A stretch of 36,931 nucleotides of DNA, taken from positions 1 through 36,931 of the forward strand of contig JAHITX010000081.1 of NCBI GenBank assembly GCA_018817425.1, given 5' to 3'. The stretch comes from Pseudomonadota bacterium. GTDB taxonomy: Bacteria > Desulfobacterota > Desulfobacteria > Desulfobacterales > RPRI01. The first letter of the stretch is position 1. The number at the start of each line of letters is the position of its first letter. A program made the position numbers and the translations under genes. Of this stretch, positions 11,599 to 36,713 are shown piece by piece. The notes beneath the pieces were generated by a model. It saw only the letters and a list, made by a program, of their open reading frames with translations. It was not told the origin of the DNA and did not search any database.

Positions 11599-11711
11599 AG
11601 GGATTCAGATTGAAAATCTTAAAAACATAACGGATTCCGTGTATTTGCTTTTTAATTTTTTTAGCAAAGTTCTTGCTTTAAACCCTGTCTAAAAAAAGGA
11701 ATATAATAAAA

Positions 11712-13163
11712 GTGAATGAAAATCCCCAAACAGAGTTAAAAGAACATCAAAACATTTCCTGCGATGATGAAATTGATCTAATGGATTGTCTCTTGGTTCT
11801 ATGGAGAAGGAAGGTTTTGATTATTCTCATGACTATATTAATCACAGGTGTGGCAATCGGGACAGCAATGTTGCGATATCCGGCAAAGTATGTAACGAGC
11901 TGCGCCATTTCATTGGATTATCCGGGAATAGAAGAAAACAAAAATCCGGATAATACGATGTTTGCCAAGGAGCAGATCATTACACCTGATATTATTGCGA
12001 GAGCGACTTCCTTTCTTCAAAAAAGCAACAAGTCTTTTTCTGAAATAGATTTAAGAGCAATGATAGACATAGAATCGATAATTCCATATGAGATTCAGGA
12101 AAAGATGAAAAAGGCTGAAATAAAGAAAGAGTCATATAGTTTCTATCCTAACCGGTTCACCTTGACCTTCACTCAGGAAAAAGACGGCATTTTATCGAAC
12201 AAAGAAAGGGAAGAAATATTACTATCCATAATAAACCAATACAAAAAAGACTTTGAGATAAAATATGGACAAGAGCCGTTAGTTATGATGAAATTTCCCG
12301 ACAATTTTCTTAAAAATTCCGACTATATTGATGTCGTCAATACCTTTAAAACAAAAACAGATGATTTTATTAAGTTTTTAAATTCTAAAATAGCAAAAGC
12401 CGGTTTTTTCCGATCAAAAAAAACCGGCGAGTCGTTCATAGAGCTAAAAAGTTCGATAGAACTGCTTAACAATATTGAGATATCCCAAATTGAAGCAACT
12501 ATTCATACTTTACAACTTAGCAAGAATAAAAAGAATCTTATTAATTTATACAAACAAAAAATTAAAACAATTGAAGTTAAAAGAAAAAAGAGGGAAAAGG
12601 AAGCATTGGTTGCCAAGGAGCTGTTAAAATATATAAAGCAAGCAGAAGGATATACGGCACCAAAGAGTGTAGGCAATGATAAAGGAGAAACAAGGTTGGT
12701 TCTTGATACATCCTTTATAAAGAGTCTGGTCAAAGAGGATTCTTCTTCATTTCTTATAAAAACTGCTCTGGAGGCAGAAGTAGATGCAAAAAAAATGGAG
12801 GTTGATAAAGAATACCTGCAAGAAGAGATTGTTTGTTTAAAGGAAAAGGAAAAAGAAAAAGAAAAAGAAAACATTACCTATCTACAGGAAAATCTAAAGA
12901 ATATAAGCGAGAGAATTTTTATTCTGTCAAAAAAGGCAAATGATTTGAACATGGAATATCTTAGTACATTAGTAAGCAATGCCGTCAATATAGTAAGATA
13001 TCCCGAAACAAATAAAATTAGAGCAGTAAATATCAGAAAGATTGCGTTGCTTTTCGGTGTAATGGCTTTATTAATATCGATTTTCATCGCCTTCTTCATT
13101 GAATATATAAAAAATGTTAAACATAAGAGCCAATTTCAAAACGCTAAGAACTTTGCCTCATAA
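11712..13163 (+). CDS. Wzz-family chain-length determinant, long form (2 of 3)
   Basis: A 483-residue Wzz-like protein starting at GTG. It has the same head signature (DDEIDLMDCLLVLWRRK, 18-34), a transmembrane helix at about 35-55, a long lysine/glutamate-rich periplasmic region predicted as coiled coil, and a second transmembrane helix at about 447-468. It is about 150 residues longer than its neighbours, mostly in the coiled coil, including a KEKEKEKE run coded by a 6-base tandem repeat near 12840-12868. Its last codons (KSQFQNAKN) are encoded by a solo terminal repeat of the 142-bp element at 13127-13143. The next open frame after it is a transposase fragment. Confidence 0.83.
   Translation: MNENPQTELKEHQNISCDDEIDLMDCLLVLWRRKVLIILMTILITGVAIGTAMLRYPAKYVTSCAISLDYPGIEENKNPDNTMFAKEQIITPDIIARATSFLQKSNKSFSEIDLRAMIDIESIIPYEIQEKMKKAEIKKESYSFYPNRFTLTFTQEKDGILSNKEREEILLSIINQYKKDFEIKYGQEPLVMMKFPDNFLKNSDYIDVVNTFKTKTDDFIKFLNSKIAKAGFFRSKKTGESFIELKSSIELLNNIEISQIEATIHTLQLSKNKKNLINLYKQKIKTIEVKRKKREKEALVAKELLKYIKQAEGYTAPKSVGNDKGETRLVLDTSFIKSLVKEDSSSFLIKTALEAEVDAKKMEVDKEYLQEEIVCLKEKEKEKEKENITYLQENLKNISERIFILSKKANDLNMEYLSTLVSNAVNIVRYPETNKIRAVNIRKIALLFGVMALLISIFIAFFIEYIKNVKHKSQFQNAKNFAS
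13127..13143 (+). repeat. Solo terminal repeat of the 142-bp element inside a coding end
   Basis: GAGCCAATTTCAAAACG matches the 17-base terminus GAGCCAGTTTCAAAACG with one mismatch. The rest of the element is absent. It forms codons near the end of the long Wzz-like gene, directly before the IS66 fragment, and may mark the edge of a deletion or an old insertion. Confidence 0.55.
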
Positions 13164-13187
13164 AATTGCTTTTTACGAATCCGTCGC

Positions 13188-13427
13188 TGGAAGCCTTACT
13201 ATAAATTCGATTGCTCACACGCTTTGTGTAACGCTCACCATTTAAGGGAACTGGCGAGGGCTTGGGAGCAAGATGGTCAGCACTGGGGGGACAACCTGCA
13301 GAACCTACTTGAAACAATTAATCACAAGGTCAACGATATCGGCGGCGCGTTTGATGCTCAAGAATCAGAAAAATACCAGCTTAAACACGGAGCTATCTTA
13401 AAAAAAGGTGAAAGGGAGTTGTTTTAG
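13188..13427 (+). pseudogene. IS66-family transposase fragment
   Basis: An open frame of about 79 codons reading from WKPYYKFDCSHALCNAHHLREL to YQLKHGAILKKGERELF. The CNAHHLREL and downstream QHWGDNLQNLLE portions match the middle of IS66-type TnpC transposases (usually about 500 residues). Both ends of the transposase, TnpA/TnpB and the IS termini are missing. It is a dead remnant lying between the second and third Wzz-like genes, which may have been brought together or duplicated by past IS activity. Confidence 0.75.
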
Positions 13428-13463
13428 CCGGTTAATTACCCAAGGGCTTTTGGAGGACAAATC

Positions 13464-14495
13464 ATGACAGATACTGATATGAGATATGACGAAGATGAAA
13501 TTGAACTTATGGATATTTTTCTGGTTCTATGGAAAAAGAAAATCCTTATCATTGGTGGTACCTTGATCTGTATAATTTTTGCAGCGATATATAGCCTTTA
13601 CTCGCCCAAAATATATCAAGTGCAAATGAAAATACGACCTGGGTATGTTAAACTTGGGAGTGGATATCTGGAAGCGTTAGTATATATTAAAGGGAAAATT
13701 GATGCAAACATATATGATGAAGAAATAATAAGAGAAATACCAGCCTTGGGCTTAAAACAAAAACCAGATGATATTGATTTTAAGGTATCGATTCCGAAAA
13801 ACTCCGATATCCTTGATATTACTTTGGATATTTCAGACGTGGAATCAGGGAAAAAAATCTTACAGCATCTTTATTCTCTTATATTAAAAGAAGATAACAT
13901 CCTAATGGAAGGGATTATAAATGCCTATGATCAAGAGATCGGGCTGGAAAAAATTAAGTTGGATGAAAATAGCTTAATAGCAAAGTCAAAATTATTGGAA
14001 TTGGGGAACATTGATCAGAGAATAGCATCTTTAGAGGATATGGTTGCTGATGCAAAAGCAAATAGTGAAATTTTAGTAATAGAACAAAGGAAAATAGCAG
14101 CTTTAGCTGGAAAAAAGGATGAGAAATCACTAGAAGCACTTTTGTATATCGATACTATTCAGGGAGATTTGTCTGTTGTTAACAATTTTATGAATGCAAT
14201 AAACACGGCTTTACAAAAATGGGAGGTAATAAAAAAGGATAGGGATCTTCTTGTAGTTGAAAAAAATAAAATTTCTAAAACAATTTTAAAAATAGAAATT
14301 TTGAAAAGCCAGGTAAGTAAAATGACCATGGTGCTGGCACCAAAATCAGGTGAATATCCCATAAAACCCAAAAAGCGCCTAATAGTCATGTTAGCCGGAA
14401 TCGCAGGACTTTTTTTGATGGTTATGACAGCATTTCTACTTGAATATGTGAGCAACTATCAAAAGAAAAATATATCAGGTGACCCCGTGATTTAG
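13464..14495 (+). CDS. Wzz-family chain-length determinant (3 of 3)
   Basis: A 343-residue Wzz-like protein with the family head EDEIELMDIFLVLWKKK (10-26), transmembrane helix at about 27-46, periplasmic region with coiled-coil tendency, and a closing transmembrane helix at about 305-327. It begins at an ATG preceded by GGAGG (8-base spacing), the best ribosome-binding site of the three paralogs. The sequences of the three differ strongly outside the head motif, so they are old duplicates or separate acquisitions. It is followed by a decayed toxin-antitoxin pair and an insertion sequence, so the run of polysaccharide genes is broken here. Confidence 0.83.
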   Translation: MTDTDMRYDEDEIELMDIFLVLWKKKILIIGGTLICIIFAAIYSLYSPKIYQVQMKIRPGYVKLGSGYLEALVYIKGKIDANIYDEEIIREIPALGLKQKPDDIDFKVSIPKNSDILDITLDISDVESGKKILQHLYSLILKEDNILMEGIINAYDQEIGLEKIKLDENSLIAKSKLLELGNIDQRIASLEDMVADAKANSEILVIEQRKIAALAGKKDEKSLEALLYIDTIQGDLSVVNNFMNAINTALQKWEVIKKDRDLLVVEKNKISKTILKIEILKSQVSKMTMVLAPKSGEYPIKPKKRLIVMLAGIAGLFLMVMTAFLLEYVSNYQKKNISGDPVI

Positions 14496-20478: not shown

Positions 20479-21598
20479 ATGAAAATAGGAAAAGATCGAC
20501 TAACATTTGCGAAAATTGGAAACCAAGAACATCCCTTAGTATCGAAGTTTTTCTTAAACGTTGAAAATGAGGAAGGCGTTGTTAGAGACTTTGAGAATGA
20601 GCGTATCAAGCCAGATGATGAAGATTTAGGGATAGCGGATGAAATATTAAGTCATTTTTCGAAATATTCATCAATAGGCGGGCCTAGTGATGAATGGTCT
20701 TGGATTGATGAAAATTGCAGAAAAGAATACATCTCTGCTCTGCTCAATGAAGATAGATATCAACTTGCGCTAATGTTAAGAAATATGTTCAGAAATTCTT
20801 CAACATTTGGCATAACATCTGCTCATATCGAAAGTTTATCCTTAAAAGATAAACGGAAAGAACTTCTTAACACAATACTTTTAGACATTGATACTTGGAA
20901 AGAGTTTACAAATAACAATGAGCTGGCAGCGCTTGATTGGACTAATTTTTTTGGAAATCCTTGTGGGTTAGAGGTTAATGGGGTTTTGATTTCTGCGGAC
21001 ACTCTTCGACATGATTATTTCGCTAAGAAAATTTCAGGCCTGTTAGAGACCTTTAGGGAGCATACTCATTACTCAATAATAGAAGTTGGGGGGGGGGTAT
21101 GGCGGGCTTGCCATGCAATTGATAAGGAACCTCAGAAATAATTTTTCATATACAAATATTGATTTAGTTGAAACATTGTATGTTTGTTATTATTTTTTAA
21201 AAAGAAATTCAAACAAAAAAGTTATTCTTTTAGACGAGGAAAAGATCAAGAACCAGGAGCTTTTTGGTGATATTTTATTGGTTCCAGAACGATTTAAAGA
21301 TAAAATAAATTGGAATGTCGATTTATTTTTTAACGCCTGTTCTCTTGCGGAGATGAATAAACAATATGTAAACGAATATATAAATTTAGTTAACACTGGA
21401 AAGCCAAAGATTATACTTCACTTAAATAGTAATTTTCTCGAATTCCCAGATTCAAAAAGGCACATTGAAACCCTGGCCTCGGAGTTCCACTTTGATTCTT
21501 CTTACTTTACTCTTCTTACTTTTTTTGTATCACCATGGGCGCCAGGTTATAGAGACAGGGAATTTATTTATTTTTCAAAAGATCTTATTAAAAGGTAG
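20479..21598 (+). pseudogene. Putative sugar O-methyltransferase, off-frame at a G10 tract
   Basis: Two overlapping frames form one protein of about 372 residues. The first part (from ATG 20479) holds the family's N-terminal region including FGNPCGLEVNGVLIS and ends in IIEVGGG; the second resumes YGGLAMQLIRNL and NIDLVETLYVCYYFL to the stop at 21596-21598. The break is exactly at ten consecutive Gs (21088-21097); nine would give EVGGGYGGLA, the SAM-binding glycine loop. It resembles the putative sugar O-methyltransferase family. As written, translation passes into a wrong frame and stops at 21141. Slipped-strand repair could switch it on and off, or one G is a sequencing error. I call it a phase-variable or frameshifted gene, not a fully decayed one. 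Confidence 0.8.
21088..21097 (+). repeat. Homopolymeric G10 tract in the methyltransferase SAM motif
   Basis: Ten Gs in a row, the longest G or C run I noticed in the window. It interrupts the reading frame of the methyltransferase gene; nine Gs restore it. Confidence 0.9.
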
Positions 21599-21859: not shown

Positions 21860-22594
21860 ATGACTAAGACAGATAGTAATGATCATTGTAGATCATGGTA
21901 TGAGGAGAGTTATAGTGATGCGGGGTTTAAGGCACAGCGGCTATACCCGAATGAAGAGTTATGTCGTTTTTTGGGCAGAGAGTATTTTCTAAAAACGGCC
22001 AAAGCAGAGCGGAATCAGGTTCGTATTCTGGAGTTAGGATGTGGTTCTTGCTCCAATTTGTGGATGATTGCCAAGGAAGGATTTGATGCATATGGCATTG
22101 ATCTTTCCTCCGAAGGTGTTTATCTTGGTAGAAAAATGCTTGAGTGTTGGGGAGTGGAAGCACAACTTGATTTAGGAACAATGAGCGAGTTGCCATATGA
22201 AACCAATTTTTTTGATGTAGTCGTGGATGTATTTTCTTCTTATTGTCTTTGTGAGGAGGAACTTCATCGCTGTATCAGTGAGATAAGTAGAGTTCTGAAA
22301 CCTGGCGGCAATTTTTTTTCTTATACCCCTGGAGCAAAGTCAGATGCGTTCATAAATCCTTTTCCCGCTAATAAAATTGATGATTGGACATTGGATGGAA
22401 TAAGAAGAGAGGATTCACCATACTATGGAAATTTTTATCCATTTCGTTTCATTGCCCCACAGAACTATAAGACACTCCTTGAGAAGAATGGCTTTAAAGT
22501 AAGCTATTTGGAAACTGTCAGCAGGACATATAACAATATGCAGGAATATTTTGAGTTTGTTACCATAGTTGGGGAAAAAAATGAAACTTACTAA
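21860..22594 (+). CDS. Class I SAM-dependent methyltransferase
   Basis: A 244-residue Rossmann methyltransferase. Motif I is ILELGCGSCSNL (56-67), followed by YGIDLSSEGV (motif II), FFDVVVDVFSSYCL (about 115-128) and ISRVLKPGGNFFSYTPG (motif IV-V). It lacks a recognisable substrate domain; by context it methylates a sugar or sugar-nucleotide of the locus. It opens the tightly packed run of genes and overlaps the next gene by 14 bases, implying coupled translation. The 261 bases before it show no gene. Confidence 0.82.
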   Translation: MTKTDSNDHCRSWYEESYSDAGFKAQRLYPNEELCRFLGREYFLKTAKAERNQVRILELGCGSCSNLWMIAKEGFDAYGIDLSSEGVYLGRKMLECWGVEAQLDLGTMSELPYETNFFDVVVDVFSSYCLCEEELHRCISEISRVLKPGGNFFSYTPGAKSDAFINPFPANKIDDWTLDGIRREDSPYYGNFYPFRFIAPQNYKTLLEKNGFKVSYLETVSRTYNNMQEYFEFVTIVGEKNETY

Positions 22595-23900
22595 GAGTTT
22601 GCGAATGCAAACGCATGCCAAAAAATTTATTCCTGGAATGACCCAGCTTCTTTCCAAACGGCCTGACATGTTCACCGAAGGAGTTTGGCCTGGGTATTTC
22701 GACAAAGCCAAAGGCATAGAAGTCTGGGATCTGGACGGCAATAAGTATATTGATATGAGCATTTCCGGAATCGGGGCCAATGTGCTTGGATATTCCGACC
22801 CAGATGTAGATGCTGCAGTTATAGAAGCTATTTCCAAAGGAACAAGCTGCTCTCTTAATTGTCCTGAGGAGGTTGAATTGGCTGAGTTGCTCTGTACTCT
22901 CCATCCTTGGGCTGAGATGGTGAGATATGCCCGCACAGGCGGAGAAGCCATGGCCATGGCAGTGCGTTTAGCCCGCGCCCACACGGGGCGAGATAAAATT
23001 GCTTTTTGTGGATATCATGGCTGGCACGATTGGTATTTATCCGCCAACCTTGGAACTGAAAACGCACTTGGGGAACATTTACTATCTGGCTTAAGCCCTG
23101 CTGGAGTTCCAAAAGGACTCAAAGATACTGCCTTCCCATTTCGGTACAATCAATTAGAAGAGCTGAAAGAAATTGTATCAAAGCACGCTGGTGACCTCGC
23201 GGCTATTGTAATGGAGCCCATTCGGAATGTGAAACCTGAACCTGGCTTTATCGAAGGTGTTAAGGCCTTGGCTGAGGAAACAGGCGCAGTATTTATTGTA
23301 GATGAGATTTCGGCAGGATTCAGATATAATACTGGTGGATCTCATATGGTTTTCTTCTCAGATATGCCGGATATGGCTGTCTTTTCTAAAGCACTCGGAA
23401 ATGGATATGCAATAGCTGCTGTTATTGGAAGTGCTAAGGTAATGGAGGCTGCACAAAATAGCTTTATCTCCAGCACCTGCTGGACTGAAAGGGTTGGTCC
23501 AACAGCAGCAATAGCGACAATTAAGAAACATAAGGCCGTTTCGGCTGGCCCTCATCTTATTATGATTGGGGAGAAAGTTCAGTCCGGCTGGAGGAAAATT
23601 TCGGAAAAACATAATCTCCCAATTCATATAAGCGGAATGAAACCGATGGGACATTTCGTCTTTGAGCATGAAAAAAAACAGACAATGAAAGCCTATTTTA
23701 TTCAACTCATGCTTGAATATGGCTTTTTGGCATCTAATATGTTTTATGCAATGTATGCGCATTCTGTAGGCGATGTTGAAAAGTATCTGGATGCAGCTGA
23801 CTTTGCATTTGAAAAAATCGCAAGATCAATAGCACAAAATGATATTGAAAAAAGATTAGTTGGAAAACCATCAACAGTTGGTTTTATGAGGCTTGCTTAG
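22581..23900 (+). CDS. Class III (glutamate-1-semialdehyde-type) PLP aminotransferase
   Basis: A 439-residue fold-type I aminotransferase. I start at ATG 22581 with GGGG just upstream; a TTG at 22569 is the alternative. Hallmarks are WDLDGNKYIDM, the phosphate loop RTGGEAMAMAVRLAR, FCGYHGWHDWY, VDEISAGFRY and VFSKALGNGYAIAA, with K270 as the PLP-binding lysine. It is HemL-like in sequence but stands among sugar genes, so it more likely aminates a keto-sugar or places an amino group on a side chain than makes aminolevulinate. Similar class III enzymes accompany SpsF and NeuB genes in other surface-glycan loci as I recall them. Confidence 0.88.
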   Translation: MKLTKSLRMQTHAKKFIPGMTQLLSKRPDMFTEGVWPGYFDKAKGIEVWDLDGNKYIDMSISGIGANVLGYSDPDVDAAVIEAISKGTSCSLNCPEEVELAELLCTLHPWAEMVRYARTGGEAMAMAVRLARAHTGRDKIAFCGYHGWHDWYLSANLGTENALGEHLLSGLSPAGVPKGLKDTAFPFRYNQLEELKEIVSKHAGDLAAIVMEPIRNVKPEPGFIEGVKALAEETGAVFIVDEISAGFRYNTGGSHMVFFSDMPDMAVFSKALGNGYAIAAVIGSAKVMEAAQNSFISSTCWTERVGPTAAIATIKKHKAVSAGPHLIMIGEKVQSGWRKISEKHNLPIHISGMKPMGHFVFEHEKKQTMKAYFIQLMLEYGFLASNMFYAMYAHSVGDVEKYLDAADFAFEKIARSIAQNDIEKRLVGKPSTVGFMRLA

Positions 23901-27906: not shown

Positions 27907-28665
27907 ATGTTTAAAAAGATAAAACAGAAAATTGTGTGTACCATAGAAGCCCGAATGACTTCTAACCGCTTGCCAGGAAAGGTGCTTCTTCCTCTGGCAG
28001 GAAAGCCCGCTCTGGAAAGACTAATAGAGCGTATTCGAAGAAGTACTTACGTCAATGATATTGTAGTTGCAACAACAATAAATAGAGATGACCAGCCGAT
28101 TGTTGCTCTTTGTGAAAAAATAGGATGTTTTTACCATAGAGGAAGCGAAGAGGATGTACTTTCAAGGGTTTTAGGTGCCGCAAAATCTGTAGACGGCAAC
28201 ATTATTGTAGAAATTACCGGTGATTGCCCGCTAATTGACCACAGGCATATTGATAAAACAATTGAAGTGTTTTTTTCTGGTGATTATGATTATGCGGCCA
28301 ATACAGTTGAGCGTTCTTTTCCAGATGGATTTGATGTACAGGTTTTTCCAGTTAATCTTTTAGAAAAGGTTGCTATGTTGACTCAGGATCCCATTGATCG
28401 GGTGCACGTTAGTTATTACATCTGGAACCATCCAAAGTGTTATAAACTTGCGAATTGGAAAGCTCAAGGGGATATGTACTGGCCAAGCCTTGGTCTTACC
28501 TTGGATGAGAAAGACGATTATCAATTAATAGATAAAATTTATAAAGAGTTGTTTTCAGAAAATAATGATTTTTCTGCAGAGGATATTATTGCTTTTCTTA
28601 GAAAGCGCCCCGATCTAACTGTAATTAATGCCCATGTTCGTCGAAAAGTTCCTGAGGAGGGATGA
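27907..28665 (+). CDS. SpsF/NeuA-like cytidylyltransferase family protein (2 of 2)
   Basis: A 252-residue member of the same family as the product of 23902-24672, with TIEARMTSNRLPGKVLLPLA (about 12-31), YHRGSEEDVLSRVL and IIVEITGDCPLIDHRHID. The two differ widely, so this is not a recent duplication; each may activate a different sugar acid. Its last codons contain the AGGAGG ribosome-binding site of the next gene, so the two are translationally linked. Confidence 0.87.
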   Translation: MFKKIKQKIVCTIEARMTSNRLPGKVLLPLAGKPALERLIERIRRSTYVNDIVVATTINRDDQPIVALCEKIGCFYHRGSEEDVLSRVLGAAKSVDGNIIVEITGDCPLIDHRHIDKTIEVFFSGDYDYAANTVERSFPDGFDVQVFPVNLLEKVAMLTQDPIDRVHVSYYIWNHPKCYKLANWKAQGDMYWPSLGLTLDEKDDYQLIDKIYKELFSENNDFSAEDIIAFLRKRPDLTVINAHVRRKVPEEG

Positions 28666-28669
28666 AATA

Positions 28670-29644
28670 ATGGCTGTTTTGTATACCGCTGCTATTATCG
28701 GGTGTGGAAGAATTGGATCCGGATTTGACTCAACAGAATCTGAAAATATTTTAACCCATGCGAAAGCCTACACCCTTAATCCAAAAATTGAGCTGATAGC
28801 AGTGATGGATGCAGATTTAGATAAGGCTAACGCAGCAGGTATAAAGTGGGAATGCGAAAGTTTTGATAATATTGATATTTTATTGGAGAAAAACCCCGAT
28901 ATATTAAGTATATGTACTCCAGATGCCTCTCACTATGAAATTCTATTGAAATGTCTTAATTATCGGCCAAAGGCTGTTATTGCTGAAAAACCTTTAACTC
29001 TGGATGTTTCAAAGACAAAGGAAATTGTCACACGCTATCAGGATCTTGATGTTCCACTTTTTGTCAATTTTTCGAGGCGGTTTGACTATATAATGCAAGT
29101 GGTTCGAGAAAGAATATACAATGATGAATTGGGCGGTATCCTTCATGCCTCCATCAAATACTCGAAGGGAATCATGCATAACGGATCGCATGCCATTGAT
29201 GCCTCGAATTTTTTATTTGGAAAATATATTTCCGGTTTCCCGGTGAATGATATTATTGATTATGATAAAAAGGATCCTACACTGGGTGCAGTTTTGTGTT
29301 ATTCAAAGTGTCCGGCAGTTTTCCTTATGGCCTGTGATGAGCGCGCCTATTCAATATTTGAAGTTGATATTGTCGGGGAAAAAGGACGTATTAAACTTGA
29401 TCAATCTGGAATGCAGTGCAGAGAGTATAAATTGAGGCGTGATCCTATCTTTGATGGATATATAGATATTGAAGAGGAACCGCCATACTCTACTAACTTG
29501 GGAAAGTCTATGCAAAAACTCGCAGAGAATGTTGTAGGCTACCTCGAGGGCAACGATTCGATTCTGTGTAGCGGGACAGATGCTCTTGCTGCACAGCAGA
29601 TTTGTCAATCTCTTCTATCTCAGTATCAAGGAAGATCGAAATGA
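28670..29644 (+). CDS. Gfo/Idh/MocA-family NAD(P)-dependent sugar oxidoreductase
   Basis: A 324-residue protein starting at ATG 28670, supported by AGGAGG 9 bases upstream; the more upstream ATG at 28628 lacks this. AAIIGCGRIGSGFD (about 5-18) is the Rossmann loop, LSICTPDASHYE and VIAEKPLTLD contain the conserved EKP lysine, and the C-terminal half has the family's sheet domain with SHAIDASNFLF. It would oxidise or reduce a nucleotide sugar or sugar acid; the substrate is unknown. It overlaps the next gene by 4 bases (ATGA). Confidence 0.87.
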   Translation: MAVLYTAAIIGCGRIGSGFDSTESENILTHAKAYTLNPKIELIAVMDADLDKANAAGIKWECESFDNIDILLEKNPDILSICTPDASHYEILLKCLNYRPKAVIAEKPLTLDVSKTKEIVTRYQDLDVPLFVNFSRRFDYIMQVVRERIYNDELGGILHASIKYSKGIMHNGSHAIDASNFLFGKYISGFPVNDIIDYDKKDPTLGAVLCYSKCPAVFLMACDERAYSIFEVDIVGEKGRIKLDQSGMQCREYKLRRDPIFDGYIDIEEEPPYSTNLGKSMQKLAENVVGYLEGNDSILCSGTDALAAQQICQSLLSQYQGRSK

Positions 29645-30648
29645 AAAACCTTGATTCAGTATCCAAAATTATCTCGATACTATCTGGTTTTGATAAATAC
29701 TATTTATATTGTGTAGACCCCGGTGCATATAATTGTATGCGGTATATTTATGATGCTCTTATACAGACCAACGTGGAAGTTTCCTGGATAGCAGAAGGTT
29801 GGTGTAAATCAAATATTATGGAAAAAGAGGAAACGATACAATGGCATGAATTTGAACAAATGATGTCTTGCCTCCCATCAAGGGCAAATATTTGCCTGCT
29901 TTTAGGGTCACAAAATTGTTTCAAAAAGACTCATCATGCCATAGGTTTTTGTAATCTCCATAATATCACTAATTTTTTTCTTTTAGATCATTGGCTCAAT
30001 TATGCTGAGCATTTTTTTGATTTTGAAACAAAGACTTCATTTTTACCGACAAAAATTGGTGTTATGGATGAAACTTCCCGGGATGGAATAGAAGATTCAC
30101 TGGTTACGACACCATCAGGGCAAAGGCCTGAAATTTATATTGTGGGTCATCCTAAAATGGAGGCGAGTGTTAAAACAATACAAAATATTTCACTTTATGA
30201 AATTGGTAGTTATAGAAAAATGATAGGTGCCAAAAATAAAAAATTATACCTTTTTTTACTTGAACCAGTATACAAAGATTTTGCCTTAAATGAAGTGGGC
30301 GAACCCTTACTTGGATATACCGAATACACCATACTGAAATATTTTTTTAGTAATTATTCCGTTCTAAATACAAAAGTGATAATAAAACCGCACCCTCGGC
30401 AAGATATTGATGAATTATTGCAATTTCTTGAAACAAATATCTCGCAATCACTTTACGATTACACTGTTGATATGGAGCACGACCTTGAATTTCTCATTTC
30501 AATTGCTGATGAAGTTGTGGGTATGACAACCGTGGCATTGATTTTTGCTTTAAAAGCTGGGAAAAAGATTAGAAGCATACAGGTGGGGAGAAATGAATAT
30601 GCTAGACAATTATCAAATAAGTATTTTGAAAACAATTTAACTGTTTGA
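29641..30648 (+). CDS. Putative GT-B glycosyltransferase, sialyl/CDP-transferase-like
   Basis: A 335-residue protein starting at the ATG overlapping the previous stop codon, with AAGGAAG just upstream. No close family was recognised. It shows IVGHPKMEA, then VIIKPHPRQDIDELL and DEVVGMTTVALIFALKAGKK, an arrangement like polysialyl-, capsule- and CDP-glycerol-transferases that use a KPHP/HP motif and an S/T-rich donor loop. Placed among CMP-sugar genes, transfer of the CMP-activated sugar acid is a good guess. There is no signal peptide or membrane helix. Confidence 0.55.
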   Translation: MKNLDSVSKIISILSGFDKYYLYCVDPGAYNCMRYIYDALIQTNVEVSWIAEGWCKSNIMEKEETIQWHEFEQMMSCLPSRANICLLLGSQNCFKKTHHAIGFCNLHNITNFFLLDHWLNYAEHFFDFETKTSFLPTKIGVMDETSRDGIEDSLVTTPSGQRPEIYIVGHPKMEASVKTIQNISLYEIGSYRKMIGAKNKKLYLFLLEPVYKDFALNEVGEPLLGYTEYTILKYFFSNYSVLNTKVIIKPHPRQDIDELLQFLETNISQSLYDYTVDMEHDLEFLISIADEVVGMTTVALIFALKAGKKIRSIQVGRNEYARQLSNKYFENNLTV

Positions 30649-30661: not shown

Positions 30662-31975
30662 ATGAAACTGGCAATAAATGGTGGTAAATCTGTCCGGACA
30701 AAACTGTTTCCTCCATATCGTGTAATAGGGGCTGAAGAAAAAAATGCTGCAAACAGAGTTCTTGATTCCGGAGTTCTTTCTCGTTACCTCGGATGTTGGG
30801 ATGATGACTTTTATGGTGGGCCTGAGGTTCAGGCCTTAGAAAAAGAATGGGCCAAGCACTTTGGCGTAAAAAATGCTGTTGCAGTTAATTCATGCACTTC
30901 AGGGCTTTACTGTGCCGTTGGTGCCACAGGAGTGGAGCCAGGAGAGGAAATCATTGTGAGCCCATACACAATGGCAGTCTCTGCTACTGCGCCTCTTATT
31001 TTCAATGCAATCCCTGTTTTTGCGGATATCGAAGAAGATTATTATTGTCTGGATCCAAAATCAGTTGAAGATCGAATCACAGATAGAACAAGAGCAATTA
31101 TAGTTGTAAATATTTTTGGACAACCTTATGACGCAGAACGGATTAATGCCATTGCCCTTAAACATAACCTGTGTGTCATAGAGGACAATGCCCAGGCTCC
31201 AGGGGCATTGTACAAAGGCAAAAAAACAGGCACGCTTGGAGATATTGGCGTTTTCTCTCTTAATTATCATAAGCACATACATTGTGGTGAAGGGGGAATC
31301 GTGGTTACTAATAATGATGATTTAGCAGACCGAATCAGATTGATTCGCAACCATGCCGAAGCTGTTGTAGAAGATAAGTGTGTACAAAACATCGTGAATT
31401 TAATTGGTTTTAATTTTAGACTCCCTGAAATTGAGGCGGCTATCACAAGGTGTCAATTGAGAAAATTAGATCGGCTTGTAAAAGAAAGGCAGAAAAATTG
31501 TGAATATATTGCTGAAAAATTAAGTGGCATTCCAGCGATTATTCCTCCAAAGATCCGTGAAGGCTGTACTCATTCTTACTATGTTCATCCGTTTAAGTTT
31601 GACTATGAGATGGCGGGTGTTTCAAGGGATAGTTTTATTGCGGCTGTCTGTGCTGAACTACCGCCTACGGAACTTAGAGAAGCTGAAGGCCCTTTGATGA
31701 GCTGCGGGTATGTCAAACCGCTTTATCTACAACCTATGTTCCAGCAACGGATTGCATACGGATCTAAGGGGTTCCCATTTAATAACCCATGGTATGAAGG
31801 CGATGTTAAATATGAGAAAGGTCTATGCCCCATGACAGAAAAAATGTATGAAAAAGAGCTGTTTTTGCATGAAATGATGCGGCCAGGTATGATGAGAGAA
31901 GATTTGGATGATGTGGTAAGAGCATTTGAGAAGGTGTGGGTATTAAGAGATACGCTAAAAAAACATCATAATTAA
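30662..31975 (+). CDS. DegT/DnrJ/EryC1/StrS-family sugar aminotransferase
   Basis: A 437-residue PLP enzyme. VAVNSCTSGLYCAVGATG, PYTMAVSATAPLIFNAIPVF, VIEDNAQAPGALYKGKKTGT and FSLNYHKHIHCGEGGIVV are the family blocks, with K204 as the PLP lysine. It transfers an amino group, usually from glutamate, to a keto-sugar. It is about 50 residues longer than PseC and opens with AINGGKSVRTKLFPPYRVIG, closer to StrS/antibiotic-sugar types, so I do not call it pseC although it may serve that role. It ends 72 bases before the acetyltransferase. Confidence 0.9.
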   Translation: MKLAINGGKSVRTKLFPPYRVIGAEEKNAANRVLDSGVLSRYLGCWDDDFYGGPEVQALEKEWAKHFGVKNAVAVNSCTSGLYCAVGATGVEPGEEIIVSPYTMAVSATAPLIFNAIPVFADIEEDYYCLDPKSVEDRITDRTRAIIVVNIFGQPYDAERINAIALKHNLCVIEDNAQAPGALYKGKKTGTLGDIGVFSLNYHKHIHCGEGGIVVTNNDDLADRIRLIRNHAEAVVEDKCVQNIVNLIGFNFRLPEIEAAITRCQLRKLDRLVKERQKNCEYIAEKLSGIPAIIPPKIREGCTHSYYVHPFKFDYEMAGVSRDSFIAAVCAELPPTELREAEGPLMSCGYVKPLYLQPMFQQRIAYGSKGFPFNNPWYEGDVKYEKGLCPMTEKMYEKELFLHEMMRPGMMREDLDDVVRAFEKVWVLRDTLKKHHN

Positions 31976-32047
31976 GGTTTTCATATTGAATTATTAATGA
32001 ATGAAGAGAGTTTATCGTGAAGAAATGTTTTAATGCGGAGGAAAGAA

Positions 32048-32644
32048 ATGATGGAAATTCAATATGATATTTTTATTAAGGGAAATTTAATTGATTTAGT
32101 TTGTTTGAATGAAAGTATTGCATTAAATTCCAATTGGTATAATTGGTTCAACGATGAGGAAAATATGTATAATATGCAAAAGCATTATTTTCCAAGCACA
32201 AGAGAATCTCAGGTGAATTTTTTCCGAACTGTGATCAATAACAGCGCAACCATGTTGCAAGTGGGGATTTTTCATAAAAAAGATCAAATTTTGATTGGCG
32301 TGATTTCGTTATCGAAAATTGATTATCTGAATCGGAAGTGTGAAATTAGCGGTTTTATTGGAGAAAAAAAATATCAAAATATTCAAAATTTTCTTGAAGC
32401 TAACCGATTGCTAATATGCCATGCTTTTGAACAACTTAACATGAATAGAATATATGGTGGCGCAATTAAAAACGAGATTGCTGAATTATATTTACGCTCT
32501 CTTGGTTTTACACGGGAGGGTCTTTTGGTAGAGGATGTGTATAAAAATGGAATGTATAACGATGTTCACCTGATCGCAATTTCTCAAAAAAGATACAATG
32601 AATTTTTTAAAAAAAATGATGATAAAACAAATGAATTTTCATAA
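32048..32644 (+). CDS. GNAT-family N-acetyltransferase (RimJ/PseH-like)
   Basis: A 198-residue protein from ATG 32048, chosen for GGAGG 6 bases upstream; the ATG at 32033 lies before that site. The GNAT fold is visible in IGVISLSKIDYLNRKCEISG (strands 4 and 5 region), YQNIQNFLEANRLLICHAFE and LNMNRIYGGAIKNEIAELYLRSLGFTREG spread over about 85-165. It resembles PseH and related sugar acetyltransferases that acetylate an amino group with acetyl-CoA. It follows the DegT aminotransferase, the usual aminotransferase-acetyltransferase order. It overlaps the next gene. Confidence 0.82.
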   Translation: MMEIQYDIFIKGNLIDLVCLNESIALNSNWYNWFNDEENMYNMQKHYFPSTRESQVNFFRTVINNSATMLQVGIFHKKDQILIGVISLSKIDYLNRKCEISGFIGEKKYQNIQNFLEANRLLICHAFEQLNMNRIYGGAIKNEIAELYLRSLGFTREGLLVEDVYKNGMYNDVHLIAISQKRYNEFFKKNDDKTNEFS

Positions 32645-33536
32645 TATAGTTGATCAAATAAGCAATCGCTCTGCGTTTCAAAAAAAACGTCTTAATAGTT
32701 ATCTGGCAACCTGCGATGATACTTTTTTTCATCAAGCAGATGACTTTGTACTAAGGTATGAAGAATTTCTTGCTAAACGCCAAATTCCGATGGACTATGC
32801 AGTTGATGCCTATCTAAAGATGTGCAGCAACATGCTGCGTTGCCAAGTTGAATATCTGCGGTCTGGGCGCTACCCAAAAGTGACGGCAGAGCAAGCTAAA
32901 CAAGCTGTATATGAAAGTGAAACTGAGATGCTTTCTTACATGGTTGGTTTAGGTCTTTCACAGTTCTTGTGGCCAACGCATTATCAAATGTTCAGTTTTT
33001 TTAAAAAAGTAATTTATGATGAGGCTAAATCTGTCTCCTCATATCTTGAAATTGGTCCTGGTCATGGCCTCTACATGGAATATGCGTTATCTAAACTTCA
33101 TAAAGTCGATGTTGCTGTAGCTATTGACATCAGCTCCACATCTTTAGAACTATCGCGATCAATCATTCAATATTTTATTCCCAAAAAAAAAGAAGTTGAG
33201 TTTGTATTGGGTGATGTCACTAAAACAGATTTTGATAGGCATTTTGATTTCATCACAATGGGAGAGGTCCTTGAGCATGTTAATCAGCCAAAAGTACTTT
33301 TAAAGCAATTAAAGAAACTCTTGGCTCCAGGTGGAAAAGCATTTGTTTCTACATGTGCTAACAGTCCAGCGATTGATCATGTCGTTCAATTTGATAACGT
33401 GAAGCAAATGAGGGAGCTTATTATTAGCGCTGGTCTGACAATTCTTGTTGATCTTCCTTTGCCAGTGGAATCAATGTCGGTGAAAGAAGCTGAAGTTGAG
33501 CGTGTTACGATTAATTATTGTGCATTGTTGGAGTAA
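32631..33536 (+). CDS. Class I SAM-dependent methyltransferase with N-terminal helical domain
   Basis: About 301 residues from ATG 32631; ATG 32598 is an alternative that would overlap the acetyltransferase by 47 bases. An N-terminal helical region of about 130 residues precedes SYLEIGPGHGLYMEYAL (motif I), VAIDISSTSLELSRSI, FDFITMGEVLEHVNQP and KLLAPGGKAFVSTCANSP. It lies between an acetyltransferase and the MaoC-SDR/FkbH/ACP group. A carrier-bound or sugar-bound methyl acceptor is possible; FkbH systems often include an O-methyltransferase, but the fit is unproven. Confidence 0.8.
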   Translation: MNFHNIVDQISNRSAFQKKRLNSYLATCDDTFFHQADDFVLRYEEFLAKRQIPMDYAVDAYLKMCSNMLRCQVEYLRSGRYPKVTAEQAKQAVYESETEMLSYMVGLGLSQFLWPTHYQMFSFFKKVIYDEAKSVSSYLEIGPGHGLYMEYALSKLHKVDVAVAIDISSTSLELSRSIIQYFIPKKKEVEFVLGDVTKTDFDRHFDFITMGEVLEHVNQPKVLLKQLKKLLAPGGKAFVSTCANSPAIDHVVQFDNVKQMRELIISAGLTILVDLPLPVESMSVKEAEVERVTINYCALLE

Positions 33537-33539
33537 AAT

Positions 33540-34724
33540 ATGGCAAGAATAGAGGACATATATGTTGGGCAAATGGCAGAACTTCTACATGTTGTAACGA
33601 CAGACGACCTAAATCGATTTGTTGCGTTGACGGGCGATGACAATCGTTTGCATGTTGATCCGGTATACGCTGCTAATACAAGTTTCAAAAAACCTGTTGT
33701 TCATGGTATGCTGGGAGTCTCCTTTATTTCAACTGTTATAGGGACGAAACTTCCTGGTGATGGCGCACTCTGGTTTGCCCAAAATCTTGAATTTATCCTT
33801 CCTGTTAGGGTTGGTGATCATTTAACTATCCGTGTAGAAGTAATCAGCAAAGATGAACGTTCTAAAATTATAGAGTTGAAGACAGATATTCTGAATCAGC
33901 GGCGTCAGAAGGTGACAACAGGTGTTGCAAAAGTGAAAATTGTTGAGCATGAAACTGAAGAACCAATCCATGCTTCCCCTTCCACAAAACGGGTAGCCTT
34001 GGTAGTCGGTGGATCAGGAGGAATTGGCTCTGCCATTTGTCGCGCTATGGCTGTGGAAGGTTTTGATGTTGCCATTCATTATTGGAAAAATGGTAACTAT
34101 GCAAATCAAATTGCGGACCAGATTAAACCACATGGAAACAAAATATATGTTTGTCAAGCCGATATTCTCGATGAATCTTCTGTGAAAGAGATGGTGGAAC
34201 AGGTGGTTCGTCACCTAGGTCCCATTACCGTTTTAGTTAATTGCACGACCGCAAAGATTGCTGCAATTAAGTTTTCAGACTTGATTTGGTCAGATTTTGA
34301 AGAACATCTCGGAACGACGATTCATGGTGCTTTTTCTCTTGTGCGGAGCGTTCTACCTTTTATGGAGAAGGCCCGTTCTGGAAAGATTATTCACATCAAC
34401 TCTCTGTATGTTGACTCCCCGGAAACAAATCTTCTTCCCTATATTACTGCGAAAGGTGCGTTAATGGGATTTAGTCGTGCATTAGCATTGGATCTTGCGC
34501 CTAAAGGTATACAAGTTAATAGCGTTTCAGCAGGCATGACTGATACTGAACAGATTGCAGATGTTCCAGAGCGAGTACGATTGATGACGGCAGCCCAAAC
34601 GCCATTACGCCGTCTGGCAAAACCTGAGGATGTAGCCGACGCTGTTGTCTTTCTTGCTTCTGACCGAGCTAATTTTATGGCAGGAGAAACCATACGAGTC
34701 AACGGAGGCCAAGTAATGCTATGA
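33540..34724 (+). CDS. Fusion of MaoC-like dehydratase and SDR ketoreductase
   Basis: A 394-residue two-domain protein. Residues about 1-140 are a MaoC hot-dog domain (FVALTGDDNRLHVDPVYAAN with the Asp/His pair, then KPVVHGMLGVSF), as in R-specific enoyl-CoA/ACP hydratases. Residues about 147-394 are a FabG-like SDR (VALVVGGSGGIGSAI; S288, Y301 and K305 as catalytic residues in INSLYVDS and PYITAKGAL). Together they could reduce a 3-ketoacyl thioester and interconvert hydroxyacyl and enoyl forms. The FabG-like half has an intact tail (GETIRVNGGQ). It overlaps the FkbH-like gene by 4 bases (ATGA). Confidence 0.87.
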   Translation: MARIEDIYVGQMAELLHVVTTDDLNRFVALTGDDNRLHVDPVYAANTSFKKPVVHGMLGVSFISTVIGTKLPGDGALWFAQNLEFILPVRVGDHLTIRVEVISKDERSKIIELKTDILNQRRQKVTTGVAKVKIVEHETEEPIHASPSTKRVALVVGGSGGIGSAICRAMAVEGFDVAIHYWKNGNYANQIADQIKPHGNKIYVCQADILDESSVKEMVEQVVRHLGPITVLVNCTTAKIAAIKFSDLIWSDFEEHLGTTIHGAFSLVRSVLPFMEKARSGKIIHINSLYVDSPETNLLPYITAKGALMGFSRALALDLAPKGIQVNSVSAGMTDTEQIADVPERVRLMTAAQTPLRRLAKPEDVADAVVFLASDRANFMAGETIRVNGGQVML

Positions 34725-36466
34725 AATCTATGAAATATACAGAAATTTTAAAGAGTAATCGTGAATTGAAAACTCAATTGAGGGGTGAGAAGTATCAGAT
34801 AGTGCTACTTTCCAACATTGTTGTTAATCAATTAAAAGAGGTTCTTGAGTTTGCTTTGCGCCAGATGGGAATCAACGCCGATGTTAGTATAGGCGAATAT
34901 GACAATATTGTCCAAGATAGCAGTCGATATGTTCAAGCGGATGCTGTTGTTGTTTTTTGGGAGGCTGGCAATTTAGTTGAAGGGCTCCATTCAACTATAA
35001 CATTGTATAACTCACACAGCATAGTTGCTTTAGCAGATCGTTTTGAAAGTGAAATAGAAATTGTCTTGAAGAATCTTCGGCATGTTCCTTTGGTACTTGT
35101 TAACTCATTTTCATCATTGCTTTTTGGCACCGACGAATTGCGCAGCGGTGCGCTGAAGCTTCTTTGCAAGCGATTAAATGAAGCTCTTGAGAATAGAGCC
35201 ACACCTAATCAGCTTATTGTGGACTTGACTGCTATTCTGGCAAGAGTGGGGCTTGGGGCTGCTGCAGATTTTCGTCAGTTTCTGACCTCAAAAGCGCTTT
35301 ATTCTGTTGATTTCTTTAAAATGTATGCAGAGGTGGTGAAAGGCTCTTTTTGTAGTGTAACCGGACGGGCACGTAAAGTTCTTGTGCTTGATTGTGACAA
35401 TACCCTTTGGGCTGGTATTCTCGGGGAGGATGGTGAGGAAGGTATACAGATGGACACCACATCTTATAAAGGGAGAGTGTTTAGAGAAGTTCAGCAAATT
35501 CTTAAAGGATTTCGTCGGAAGGGGATTTTGCTAGCGCTTTGTAGTAAGAATAATTCTGAGGATGTTGAACGTATTCTGGCAACTCATCCTGACATTGTTT
35601 TGGCAGAAGAGGATTTAGTTGCAAAGAAAGTGAACTGGAACAATAAAGCAGCTAATATACGAGAGCTTGCTGATGAGTTGAATTTGGGTACCGATAGCTT
35701 TGTCTTTGTTGATGATTCGTCGTTTGAAATTGGGTTGGTAGAAAAAGAATTGCCACAAGTTAAGTGCATACAAGTGCCTGAAATATTATCAGAATATCCC
35801 GCTAAGATGCGTGAAGTAGAGCGGGACTTTTTTTTACTTTCTCAAACAGCTGAAGATGGGCTTAAAACTGAGCAATATCATCAAGAGCATCTGCGAAAAA
35901 GCCATGGGGTAAAATTCGATACAATAAATGATTATTTAACTTCACTTGGCCTGAATGTGAATATCATATTTGGAAAGGGTATTCCTATCCATAGGGTTTC
36001 GCAGATGACTCAGAAAACAAACCAGTTCAATCTTACCACGCGCCGCTACACAGAAGGCGATATACAGCGTATGTTAAAGACTCCAGACTGTTGGATATAC
36101 GTTTTTTCAGTTGAGGATCGCTACGGTGATTATGGTCATACTGGTATGGCTATAATCGAAAAAGAGCAAGATGAGTTACATACGGCGCGTATTTCATCAT
36201 TATTGATGAGCTGTCGGGTGATTGGGCGAAATGTCGAGTATGCTTTTTTTGATCGGTTAGTAGAAAGGCTATCACAAGCTGGTATAAAAACCCTGCGTGC
36301 GGAATATATAAGAACAGCAAAAAATGAACAGGTATCTCTTTTTTATAATGAATTAGGCTTCAACGTGGTGACATCGAATGACACACAAAGCAATTATGAT
36401 ATCAAACTTGATACCTATCAATACAGAAATATTTCTTATATTAATGTTACAGAAAAGGACAATTAA
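34721..36466 (+). CDS. FkbH-like HAD-IIIC protein (long form)
   Basis: A 581-residue protein. An N-terminal domain of about 215 residues typical of long FkbH proteins precedes a HAD-IIIC domain: VLVLDCDNTLWAGILGEDG with nucleophile D224 and D226, ALCSKNNSEDVERIL and FVFVDDSSFEIGLVEKELP. The C-terminus (about 410-570) is GNAT-like (NQFNLTTRRY, RYGDYGHTGMAII, LMSCRVIGRNVEYAF). FkbH proteins take 1,3-bisphosphoglycerate, remove phosphate and load a glyceryl unit on an acyl carrier protein. The ACP gene one base downstream fits that exactly. Long forms are also found in surface-glycan loci, where the product is less clear. Confidence 0.88.
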   Translation: MKSMKYTEILKSNRELKTQLRGEKYQIVLLSNIVVNQLKEVLEFALRQMGINADVSIGEYDNIVQDSSRYVQADAVVVFWEAGNLVEGLHSTITLYNSHSIVALADRFESEIEIVLKNLRHVPLVLVNSFSSLLFGTDELRSGALKLLCKRLNEALENRATPNQLIVDLTAILARVGLGAAADFRQFLTSKALYSVDFFKMYAEVVKGSFCSVTGRARKVLVLDCDNTLWAGILGEDGEEGIQMDTTSYKGRVFREVQQILKGFRRKGILLALCSKNNSEDVERILATHPDIVLAEEDLVAKKVNWNNKAANIRELADELNLGTDSFVFVDDSSFEIGLVEKELPQVKCIQVPEILSEYPAKMREVERDFFLLSQTAEDGLKTEQYHQEHLRKSHGVKFDTINDYLTSLGLNVNIIFGKGIPIHRVSQMTQKTNQFNLTTRRYTEGDIQRMLKTPDCWIYVFSVEDRYGDYGHTGMAIIEKEQDELHTARISSLLMSCRVIGRNVEYAFFDRLVERLSQAGIKTLRAEYIRTAKNEQVSLFYNELGFNVVTSNDTQSNYDIKLDTYQYRNISYINVTEKDN

Positions 36467-36467
36467 A

Positions 36468-36713
36468 ATGAATGATCATAAAAAACGTATAATAGGTGTT
36501 ATGAGTGCCGTATTTGAAATTGATTCATCCGAAATCACAGAAGATGCTGGGCCGGGCACTATTGGGAACTGGGACTCTTTGGGGCATATGAAGCTTGTGG
36601 TTGCTCTGGAGGAGGAATTCGACTATCGCTTCCCGGATGAAATGGTTGAGCAATTGATAAGTTTTAAATTGATTGAATTGACTCTGAAAGAGGCGTTAGA
36701 AATCGAAAAGTAA
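36468..36713 (+). CDS. Acyl carrier protein
   Basis: An 81-residue stand-alone carrier protein. NWDSLGHMKLVVALEEEF carries Ser37, the site for the 4'-phosphopantetheine arm, in the usual DSLGHM context; the following helix and acidic character fit the family. It starts one base after the FkbH-like stop, with AAGGA 9 bases before the ATG. It should carry the glyceryl or acyl unit handled by the FkbH and MaoC-SDR proteins. No ketosynthase or acyltransferase is seen before the window ends. Confidence 0.92.
   Translation: MNDHKKRIIGVMSAVFEIDSSEITEDAGPGTIGNWDSLGHMKLVVALEEEFDYRFPDEMVEQLISFKLIELTLKEALEIEK

Follow-up and report, generated by a model that had tools for sequence, protein, structure and literature searches.

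The loading module of bryostatin biosynthesis combines an FkbH domain, a dehydratase (DH), a ketoreductase (KR), and an acyl carrier protein (ACP) to generate D-lactyl-ACP. Related FkbH enzymes are reported to load a carrier with glycerate in the biosynthesis of tetronates, corramycin/vioprolide, and suomilide (PMC4979870, PMC10099666, PMC8609519), with methylation of the glycerate proposed in the last case (PMC8609519). The first module of OocJ in the oocydin A pathway has the order DH-MT-FkbH-ACP, where MT is a methyltransferase, and was judged non-functional as its DH and MT lack their motifs (PMC4552970). A closer precedent comes from glycan biosynthesis. Flagellin of Campylobacter jejuni 11168 bears amide-linked 5-N-(2,3-di-O-methylglyceroyl) pseudaminic acid, and the published account of this sugar leaves the route to the di-O-methylglycerate open (PMC3068675). 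In this organism cj1301 is annotated as an epimerase and cj1302 carries an fkbH domain (PMC7099621); among the literature matches listed for FkbH in glycan loci, the word fkbH occurs only in that paper.

A carrier-protein gene block beside sugar genes

The window, the whole 36,931-nucleotide stretch of DNA analyzed here, carries an FkbH-ACP pair at the end of a sugar locus. The relevant genes are as follows.

28628..29644, + strand: Gfo/Idh/MocA oxidoreductase (Pfam)
29602..30648, + strand: polysialyltransferase-like protein (weak PF07388 match, just below cut-off)
30662..31975, + strand: DegT/DnrJ/EryC1 aminotransferase (Pfam)
32033..32644, + strand: GNAT acyltransferase (Pfam Acetyltransf_3; PseH match far below cut-off)
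32631..33536, + strand: SAM methyltransferase (MT), 301 aa (Pfam; family found at 82 distinct loci, counting the window)
33540..34724, + strand: fusion of MaoC (hotdog dehydratase/hydratase) and SDR (FabG-like ketoreductase), 394 aa (Pfam)
34721..36466, + strand: FkbH-like HAD phosphatase/acyl transferase, 581 aa (TIGR01686)
36468..36713, + strand: ACP, 81 aa, DSL serine (Pfam and NCBIfam matches below cut-off)

The tight packing of the last four genes described in an earlier note on this DNA is exact: successive spacings are +3, -4, and +1 bases, and GNAT overlaps MT by 14 bases. The MT start was set at ATG 32631 from aligned homologues (the mechanical ORF begins at 32598), and the ACP start was placed at 36468 (mechanical ORF, 36378). 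The contig stops 218 bases past the ACP. Its final ~140 bases are a dispersed repeat with at least 42 matches (40 scored of 285 candidates), many at contig ends; accordingly, the window's own genes downstream of the ACP are out of sight and there is no unique join past 36931.

FkbH belongs to its family by a wide score (290.3 bits to TIGR01686 against a curated cut-off of 146.65) and is the only match to this model in the window's draft genome. Across 70 aligned proteins, D224, D226, S275, K309, D331/D332, and C498 are kept in nearly all rows that cover them, and a DxDxT-type HAD motif lies at 224. The ACP carries the DS serine and scores just short of the Pfam PP-binding cut-off (20.0 against 20.8 bits) and likewise below that of NCBIfam acyl_carrier (8.7e-7); the genome has one match to an ACPS-type phosphopantetheinyl transferase.

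In the fusion, a MaoC domain (PF01575, residues 19-115) precedes an SDR domain that starts at residue 151 (PF13561/PF00106), and no other protein in the draft genome was matched across both parts. MaoC D33 and H38 and SDR Y301 and K305 are invariant in a 13-row alignment, arguing at the sequence level that both fused domains are catalytic. The SDR part is closest to FabG among sequences and structures, and a model of the whole protein (pLDDT 82.1) recovered SDR-family enzymes, FabG foremost, among the Foldseek matches listed. To our knowledge, no product or activity is known for any MaoC-SDR cassette. As read by eye from the alignment, the position of the SDR Asn-tetrad residue is apparently Thr in the window.

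The MT matches Methyltransf_23 and other Pfam domains and has a conserved N-terminal helical part; 21 residues are invariant in a 39-member alignment consisting of the window and 38 of 74 usable references. Searches with its structure model (pLDDT 95.7) returned DnrK-type O-methyltransferases and alpha-keto C-methyltransferases (SgvM, MrsA) at TM ~0.5 and, for residues 83-301, NodS and NNMT/PNMT at Z ~17-18. Because this is a generic class I fold, it does not fix the methyl acceptor atom. The MT is probably an O-methyltransferase that acts on the carrier-bound acyl group.

A homologous MT (34-35% identity), FkbH, and ACP lie in one block in the Campylobacter Cj1295-Cj1302 region, represented in our set by C. 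jejuni (L080) and C. volucris (L082). The Campylobacter block has a VOC epimerase (cj1301 in C. jejuni), whereas the window has MaoC-SDR between MT and FkbH and, unlike Campylobacter, a GNAT beside the cassette. No VOC match was found in the window, and the three PF13669 matches in its genome are on other contigs. We take the Cj1295-like hydrolase to be DUF2172/DUF4910. Neither DUF2172 (PF09940) nor AAC(3)-type (PF02522) domains had a match in the window's draft genome; among controls, PF09940 was detected in genome G005 and PF02522 in 5 of 14 genomes. Domains of these two kinds (DUF2172/DUF4910 and AAC(3)-like) accompany the cassette as one fused protein in L024; they are also present in L047 and L106, both of which are MaoC-SDR loci. 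The earlier note had regarded the block as the best candidate for an undescribed system. That description is not supported, since Campylobacter has a homologous ACP-MT-(VOC)-FkbH cluster and di-O-methylglyceroyl pseudaminic acid has been published (PMC3068675).

VOC and MaoC at the third gene

We compared the neighborhoods of MT homologues in 80 fetched loci, the best of 159, with counts based on 82 distinct MT loci including the window. A VOC or MaoC was called at E <= 1e-3 when it lay on the same strand no more than 7 kb from MT or FkbH. L049, which shares its contig with L024, was excluded from the counts, as were L030 and L031, which lack MT and were kept in the FkbH trees as 'none'; the careful tree was built without L046, L052, L072, L077, L106, L064, L109, and L049. 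VOC was present in 38 loci, MaoC with or without SDR in 22, and neither was detected in the other 22. The two were never found together (0 of 82 against 10.2 expected; hypergeometric P 4e-8 for loci that are not independent). The fewest VOC/MaoC changes on the FkbH tree was 10, both on the careful tree and on a quick tree with the dropped rows. With at least 10 changes and no co-detection, VOC and MaoC look like alternatives at one step. A tree-corrected sign test of this exclusion was underpowered and not significant (9 pairs: 0 same, 4-5 opposite, 4-5 with no difference; median p 0.125). All three VOC proteins checked are PF13669. Deprotonation of a 2-hydroxyacyl thioester at its alpha carbon is a possible first step for VOC-type and MaoC-type enzymes alike. 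Eight of the 22 MaoC loci have no fusion, and in six of these eight no SDR was detected; the MaoC of one non-fused locus (L114) scored only 15 bits. The VOC locus L076 has a weak opposite-strand MaoC match by blastp that is absent from the phmmer listing, and in L030 and L031 the MaoC part of a MaoC-X-SDR protein is more than 7 kb from FkbH.

A fused MaoC-SDR occurs in 14 of the 82 distinct loci, the window and 13 others. FkbH is the next reading frame after it in all 12 other fused loci in which FkbH was detected, and the thirteenth (L042) is cut by a contig end. This repetition argues that the fusion-FkbH adjacency is more than chance. The fusion, called uncommon in the earlier note, is unusual and also recurrent. 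The 13 other fused loci and the kept residues also rule out a one-off or assembly artefact.

These observations bear on whether the glycerate is kept. MaoC-SDR could invert or adjust C2 by oxidation and re-reduction, replacing the VOC epimerase; the product would then resemble that of C. jejuni, a (di-)O-methylglyceryl amide. Across loci, VOC and MaoC (the latter alone or with SDR) do substitute for each other, and di-O-methylglycerate is the one published product of a related cluster known to us (PMC3068675). However, inversion by an SDR needs no MaoC dehydratase dyad, yet the dyad is invariant, and a single MT of this family was found within the window against two in tandem in C. volucris. 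We consider retention of the glycerate unlikely.

The survey likewise addresses polyketide and fatty-acid chemistry. Sugar genes of the window's kinds are present in 11 of the 14 fused loci and a FabF-type ketosynthase in none, so the block does not occur mainly in sugar-less polyketide clusters, the outcome that the earlier note had named as refuting. With a FabF-type ketosynthase in just 2 of the 82 MT loci, neither of them with the fusion, a polyketide reading was rejected. A related idea, that FkbH and ACP supply a methoxymalonyl-type extender or start a tetronate-type polyketide and that the sugar genes are mere neighbors, draws on the known role of such pairs at the start of these paths (tetronates, PMC4979870; bafilomycin methoxymalonate genes). 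It is very improbable: neither an acyl-CoA dehydrogenase nor a 3-hydroxyacyl dehydrogenase of the FkbI/FkbK type was found in the ten proteins scanned at this locus end, and neither KAS III nor a FabF-type ketosynthase was found within the window. The tetronate set comprises FkbH, ACP, and a FabH-like protein (KAS III); with only 218 bases of contig left beyond the ACP, a KAS III gene further on would be out of view. The tetronate, corramycin/vioprolide, and suomilide pairs, as described, feed PKS or NRPS chains, and no such chain builder was found at the window.

In 6 of the 14 fused loci, KAS III does lie within 7 kb of the cassette, and extension is possible there. MaoC-SDR might then reduce and dehydrate a chain that KAS III or the host fatty-acid synthase had lengthened; the product would be a 3-hydroxyacyl or enoyl group. 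The FabG-like SDR fits such beta-keto processing, as do the longer MaoC-X-SDR proteins of L030 and L031, whose loci have KAS III, ACP, and FkbH; host fatty-acid enzymes are present in the window's genome. By contrast, neither ketosynthase type was detected in the window, L035, L036, L039, L045, or L051. Furthermore, five of the loci with KAS III (L037, L038, L042, L043, and L047) have a separate SDR near it, indicating that MaoC-SDR is dispensable as the reductase of KAS III; in the sixth (L040) the contig starts at KAS III. Chain extension followed by beta-keto processing is therefore a doubtful account, and we judge it distinctly improbable.

A putative route from glycerate to a lactyl amide

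Our preferred reading, to which we assign a probability of about 0.5, is that the block forms an autonomous acyl-ACP cassette, placed in a surface-glycan locus, whose product is a C3 acyl group derived from glycerate and used to N-acylate an amino sugar. Its broader part, a glycerate-derived N-acyl sugar formed by FkbH loading and GNAT transfer, is likely. Deoxygenation to lactyl by MaoC and then SDR is a closer call, which we put a little short of even. We infer the individual reactions, their order, and the acceptor as follows. FkbH is predicted to use 1,3-bisphosphoglycerate as the donor; it would remove the phosphate and attach glyceryl to holo-ACP. MaoC would dehydrate glyceryl-ACP across C2-C3 to the enol of pyruvyl-ACP, and the SDR would reduce pyruvyl-ACP to lactyl-ACP by the logic of the bryostatin loading module. 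The MT would O-methylate a hydroxyl, and GNAT would transfer the (O-methyl)lactyl group to an amine set by the DegT aminotransferase. The earlier note had suggested a hydroxyacyl, methylated, or glyceric-acid-derived group on an amino sugar; the occurrence of an FkbH/ACP cassette in sugar loci points to a methylated N-acyl group derived from glycerate, with the chemistry itself putative.

The four activities of the bryostatin module (glycerate loading, dehydratase, ketoreductase, and carrier) are predicted in the window too, where their counterparts are adjacent, keep their catalytic residues, and may act jointly. The window differs in encoding freestanding small proteins within a sugar locus and in having a dehydratase of the MaoC type; no PKS was found, nor any match to a FabF-type ketosynthase in the window. 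The first module of OocJ similarly has a dehydratase, a methyltransferase, FkbH, and ACP as neighbors, but these are PKS domains with no ketoreductase as described, whereas the window has an SDR (PMC4552970).

More broadly, and tentatively, we propose that a constant FkbH-ACP-MT core works with either of two interchangeable enzymes acting at the alpha carbon, a VOC epimerase or MaoC-SDR, and that this partner would set the C3 acid on a surface amino sugar as epimerized/O-methylated glycerate or (O-methyl)lactate, the latter by a freestanding, widespread glycerate-to-lactate pathway. The alternation of VOC and MaoC at the third gene across MT loci is new here. If the proposal is true, bacteria diversify surface amides by swapping one gene, the third gene present should predict the acyl group on the surface sugar, and polyketide starter chemistry would extend to glycan decoration. 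The comparison also provides a candidate enzyme set for the di-O-methylglycerate of C. jejuni flagellin. Relatives of this set are no pathogen oddity, given their spread to cyanobacteria, Nitrospirae, Ignavibacteriales, Pelagibacteraceae, and others. Carriers of the cassette include Pseudanabaena (L039) and two cultivated strains, Pseudanabaena sp. lw0831 (L045) and Phormidium tenue FACHB-1050 (L036).

On the sugar side, GNAT is a candidate for moving the acyl group onto the amino sugar, and a homologue (61% identical) adjoins the cassette in L039. The DegT enzyme is a candidate for supplying the acceptor amino group, with cassette-adjoining homologues in L039 (50% identical) and L051 (54%). 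Homologues of DegT, Gfo/Idh, and GNAT accompany the cassette in L039, and the same set minus GNAT in L051. L054 has MT, GNAT, DegT, and Gfo/Idh and no FkbH match in its 18.2 kb. In all three loci Gfo/Idh co-occurs with strong DegT matches, and polysialyltransferase-like homologues are weak in L039 and L051 (40 and 42 bits) and marginal in L054 (14 bits). The best matches of Gfo/Idh are weak and inositol-dehydrogenase-like, and among the PDB relatives of DegT are aminotransferases for Kdo8N, scyllo-inosose, and perosamine.

The gene run in the window

Five plus-strand genes make up the run that contains the cassette:

32033-32644, +, GNAT, overlapping the next gene by 14 bases
32631-33536, +, methyltransferase by Pfam/NCBIfam (MT)
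33540-34724, +, MaoC-SDR, with MaoC_dehydratas and adh_short(_C2) in one protein (Pfam/NCBIfam)
34721-36466, +, FkbH, with an FkbH domain at 290 bits against a cut-off of 146.65
36468-36713, +, ACP, with an acyl carrier match below the curated cut-offs and a DS serine present

The open reading frames bear out the positions and tight packing that the earlier note gave for the last four genes, with spacings of +3 (MT to MaoC-SDR), -4 (MaoC-SDR to FkbH) and +1 (FkbH to ACP), and GNAT belongs to the same run. The cassette is well-formed, recurrent and real. In the 5.12-Mb draft genome, FkbH and the combination of MaoC and SDR in one protein each occur once, and an ACPS-type transferase has one match. 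The window is the entire contig and closes in about 140 bases of a dispersed repeat, so genes downstream are unreadable. This repeat lies at both contig ends (36791-36931 and 1-137) and has at least 42 matches in the genome, many of them at contig ends. Elsewhere in the window, the overlapping frames 20479-21141 and 21086-21598 look like one gene split by a frameshift or sequencing error; the second matches the tail of a NanM-type sugar O-methyltransferase profile (157-273 of 273).

Catalytic residues were examined in alignments with homologues. In an alignment of 70 FkbH proteins, the window's among them and some incomplete, nearly every row that covers these positions retains the HAD residues D224, D226, S275, K309, D331 and D332 as well as Cys498 in the SCR motif. 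MaoC D33 and H38 and SDR Y301 and K305 are invariant in a 13-row fusion alignment that leaves out L042, whose gene is truncated where its contig stops, as well as the longer proteins of L030 and L031; a 16-row version was also made. The SDR serine position (288) reads as Ser or Thr. In the two longer proteins (L030, 6329-8122; L031, 1-1614), a stretch of about 200 residues with no Pfam match separates MaoC from SDR; both loci have ACP, KAS III and FkbH.

Distribution and sugar context of the fused loci

Of 395 genomes sampled from the phylum, 12 have FkbH at E <= 1e-60, counting that of the window. Among 40 near genomes, MT (E <= 1e-15) was found only in the one that carries the window, so the cassette is patchy. 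An MT alignment scan of a species-level genome collection gave 529 pattern hits and 159 relatives, the best 80 of which are comparison loci L035-L114; adding the window, L023 and L024 and dropping L049, which shares a contig with L024, leaves 82 distinct MT loci. In this sample of the best 80 of 159 relatives plus others, MaoC-SDR is fused in 14 loci (window, L035-L040, L042, L043, L045, L046, L047, L051 and L106). FkbH was found in 13 of these, in each case as the reading frame that directly follows the fusion, and ACP in 11, all with the DS serine. The fused loci come from Nitrospirae, Phormidium, Pseudanabaena, a MAG filed as Chryseobacterium gleum, Geobacteraceae, Ignavibacteriales, Pelagibacteraceae, Roseateles, Micavibrio and an unplaced bacterium.

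By the same note, its reading would fail if the block sat mostly in polyketide clusters that lack sugar genes. In this sample the fused block does not show that pattern: 11 of 14 fused loci have homologues of the window's sugar genes, and none has a FabF-type KS. The three loci without sugar-gene homologues are L106 and the short contigs L042 and L046. Across the 82 loci from the best 80 of 159 relatives plus others, FabF-type KS occurs in two (L041, L086), and homologues of the window's own gene kinds, the only ones this comparison recognized, occur in 14 of 38 VOC loci, 5 of 22 with neither VOC nor MaoC, and 0 of 8 with unfused MaoC. The sugar link is therefore clear in the fused loci but less strong in the family as a whole.

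The third gene and the Campylobacter link

In many non-fused loci a VOC protein of about 140 residues (Glyoxalase_4, PF13669, in the three checked) sits between MT and FkbH or adjoins them. Among the 82 loci (best 80 of 159 plus others), same-strand matches (E <= 1e-3) no more than 7 kb from MT or FkbH put VOC in 38, MaoC in 22, neither in 22, and both in none. Of the 22 MaoC loci, 14 have the fusion to SDR and 2 a separate SDR; in the other 6 no SDR was detected. By chance, 10.2 loci would be expected to contain both (hypergeometric P 4e-8), though the loci are not independent. The VOC locus L076 has a weak blastp MaoC match on the opposite strand that phmmer does not list, and in L114 MaoC matches at 15 bits. 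A careful FkbH tree of 63 rows requires at least 10 interchanges between VOC and MaoC, and its starred branches by themselves impose 9 changes when MaoC rows are set against all the rest; a quick MT tree needs at least 9 interchanges. Because the two genes were not found together and interchange repeatedly, we read them as probable alternative enzymes at one step. Nine VOC/MaoC pairs on separate branches, too few for significance, gave 0 differences the same way, 4-5 the opposite way and 4-5 without difference (median p 0.125).

The loci L080 (C. jejuni) and L082 (C. volucris) each contain ACP, MT and FkbH; VOC was found in L082 and none was detected in L080. The block that the earlier note called undescribed is thus better described as a variant of a Campylobacter-type glyceroyl cassette, from which the window differs in having MaoC-SDR instead of VOC. 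We found no account of the cassette in literature, mostly outside subscription journals, on FkbH with flagellar or polysaccharide glycosylation. Cj1299 and Cj1300 are presumably the ACP and MT, and our search found no experimental tests of Cj1299-Cj1302. PMC7099621 describes cj1301 as an epimerase gene and cj1302 as an fkbH-domain gene, and reports strains lacking one or the other. According to PMC3068675, the flagellin of C. jejuni 11168 bears 5-N-(2,3-di-O-methylglyceroyl) pseudaminic acid; the paper links this sugar to Cj1295 and proposes that Cj1295, with its aminopeptidase-like domain, frees the amine. Two tandem MT homologues lie in L082 (1597-3391), a pair that would fit a di-O-methylated product.

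In L024, an AAC(3)-DUF2172-DUF4910 fusion follows MT-FkbH-ACP, and DUF2172/4910 and AAC(3)-like segments also occur in L047, L048 and L106; we take the DUF2172/DUF4910 part to correspond to Cj1295. Neither DUF2172/DUF4910 nor AAC(3)-like domains had a match in the window's draft genome, where the overlapping GNAT would take the place of the AAC(3)/DUF2172 part.

Proposed chemistry and acceptor sugar

The bryostatin loading module is a precedent for a dehydratase and a ketoreductase turning glyceryl-ACP into lactyl-ACP, one that did not appear in the literature searched. By analogy, MaoC would convert glyceryl-ACP to the enol of pyruvyl-ACP, which the FabG-like SDR could reduce to lactyl-ACP. 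FkbH/ACP pairs are reported to load glycerate (PMC4979870, PMC10099666), methylation of carrier-bound glycerate is proposed for suomilide (PMC8609519), and the DH-MT-FkbH-ACP module of the oocydin PKS was judged non-functional by its authors (PMC4552970). MaoC-SDR might instead only invert C2, which is compatible with the VOC/MaoC swap, but the invariant MaoC dyad favours elimination. The swap and the forecast of lactate are the parts that deserve testing.

That MaoC-SDR processes a KAS III product could apply to the six fused loci with KAS III, but this explanation is weakened: no KAS III was found in the window, L035, L036, L039, L045 or L051, nor in L046 or L106, both short contigs, and a separate SDR lies near KAS III in L037, L038, L042, L043 and L047. 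An SDR and KAS III sub-block adjoins the cassette in L037, L038, L042 and L043; with it come a metallo-beta-lactamase-fold protein (L037, L038) and a 98-residue protein that has no Pfam match (L037, L043).

As for the acceptor, L039 (Pseudanabaena) carries Gfo/Idh, DegT (50%), GNAT (61%), ACP, MT, MaoC-SDR and FkbH in a row, L051 has MT, MaoC-SDR, FkbH, ACP, a Capsule_synth gene, Gfo/Idh and DegT (54%), and L054 has the DegT, Gfo/Idh, GNAT and MT set. From this recurrence of the DegT gene set with MT, we infer that the acyl group may go onto the amine that the DegT enzyme makes. FkbH had no match in the 18.2 kb of L054, where E1 and E2-lipoyl genes of a 2-oxoacid dehydrogenase lie downstream of MT (10863-13986), perhaps another route to supply the acyl group. 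The NeuB-like gene, two cytidylyltransferase genes and PseB, whose match exceeds its cut-off, suggest that the window locus as a whole handles nonulosonate-type acids. In the Pelagibacteraceae locus L043 (14034-20605), the cassette is followed by GNAT, KAS III, NeuB, a GSA-type aminotransferase (39% to the window gene 22569-23900) and a cytidylyltransferase-like gene.
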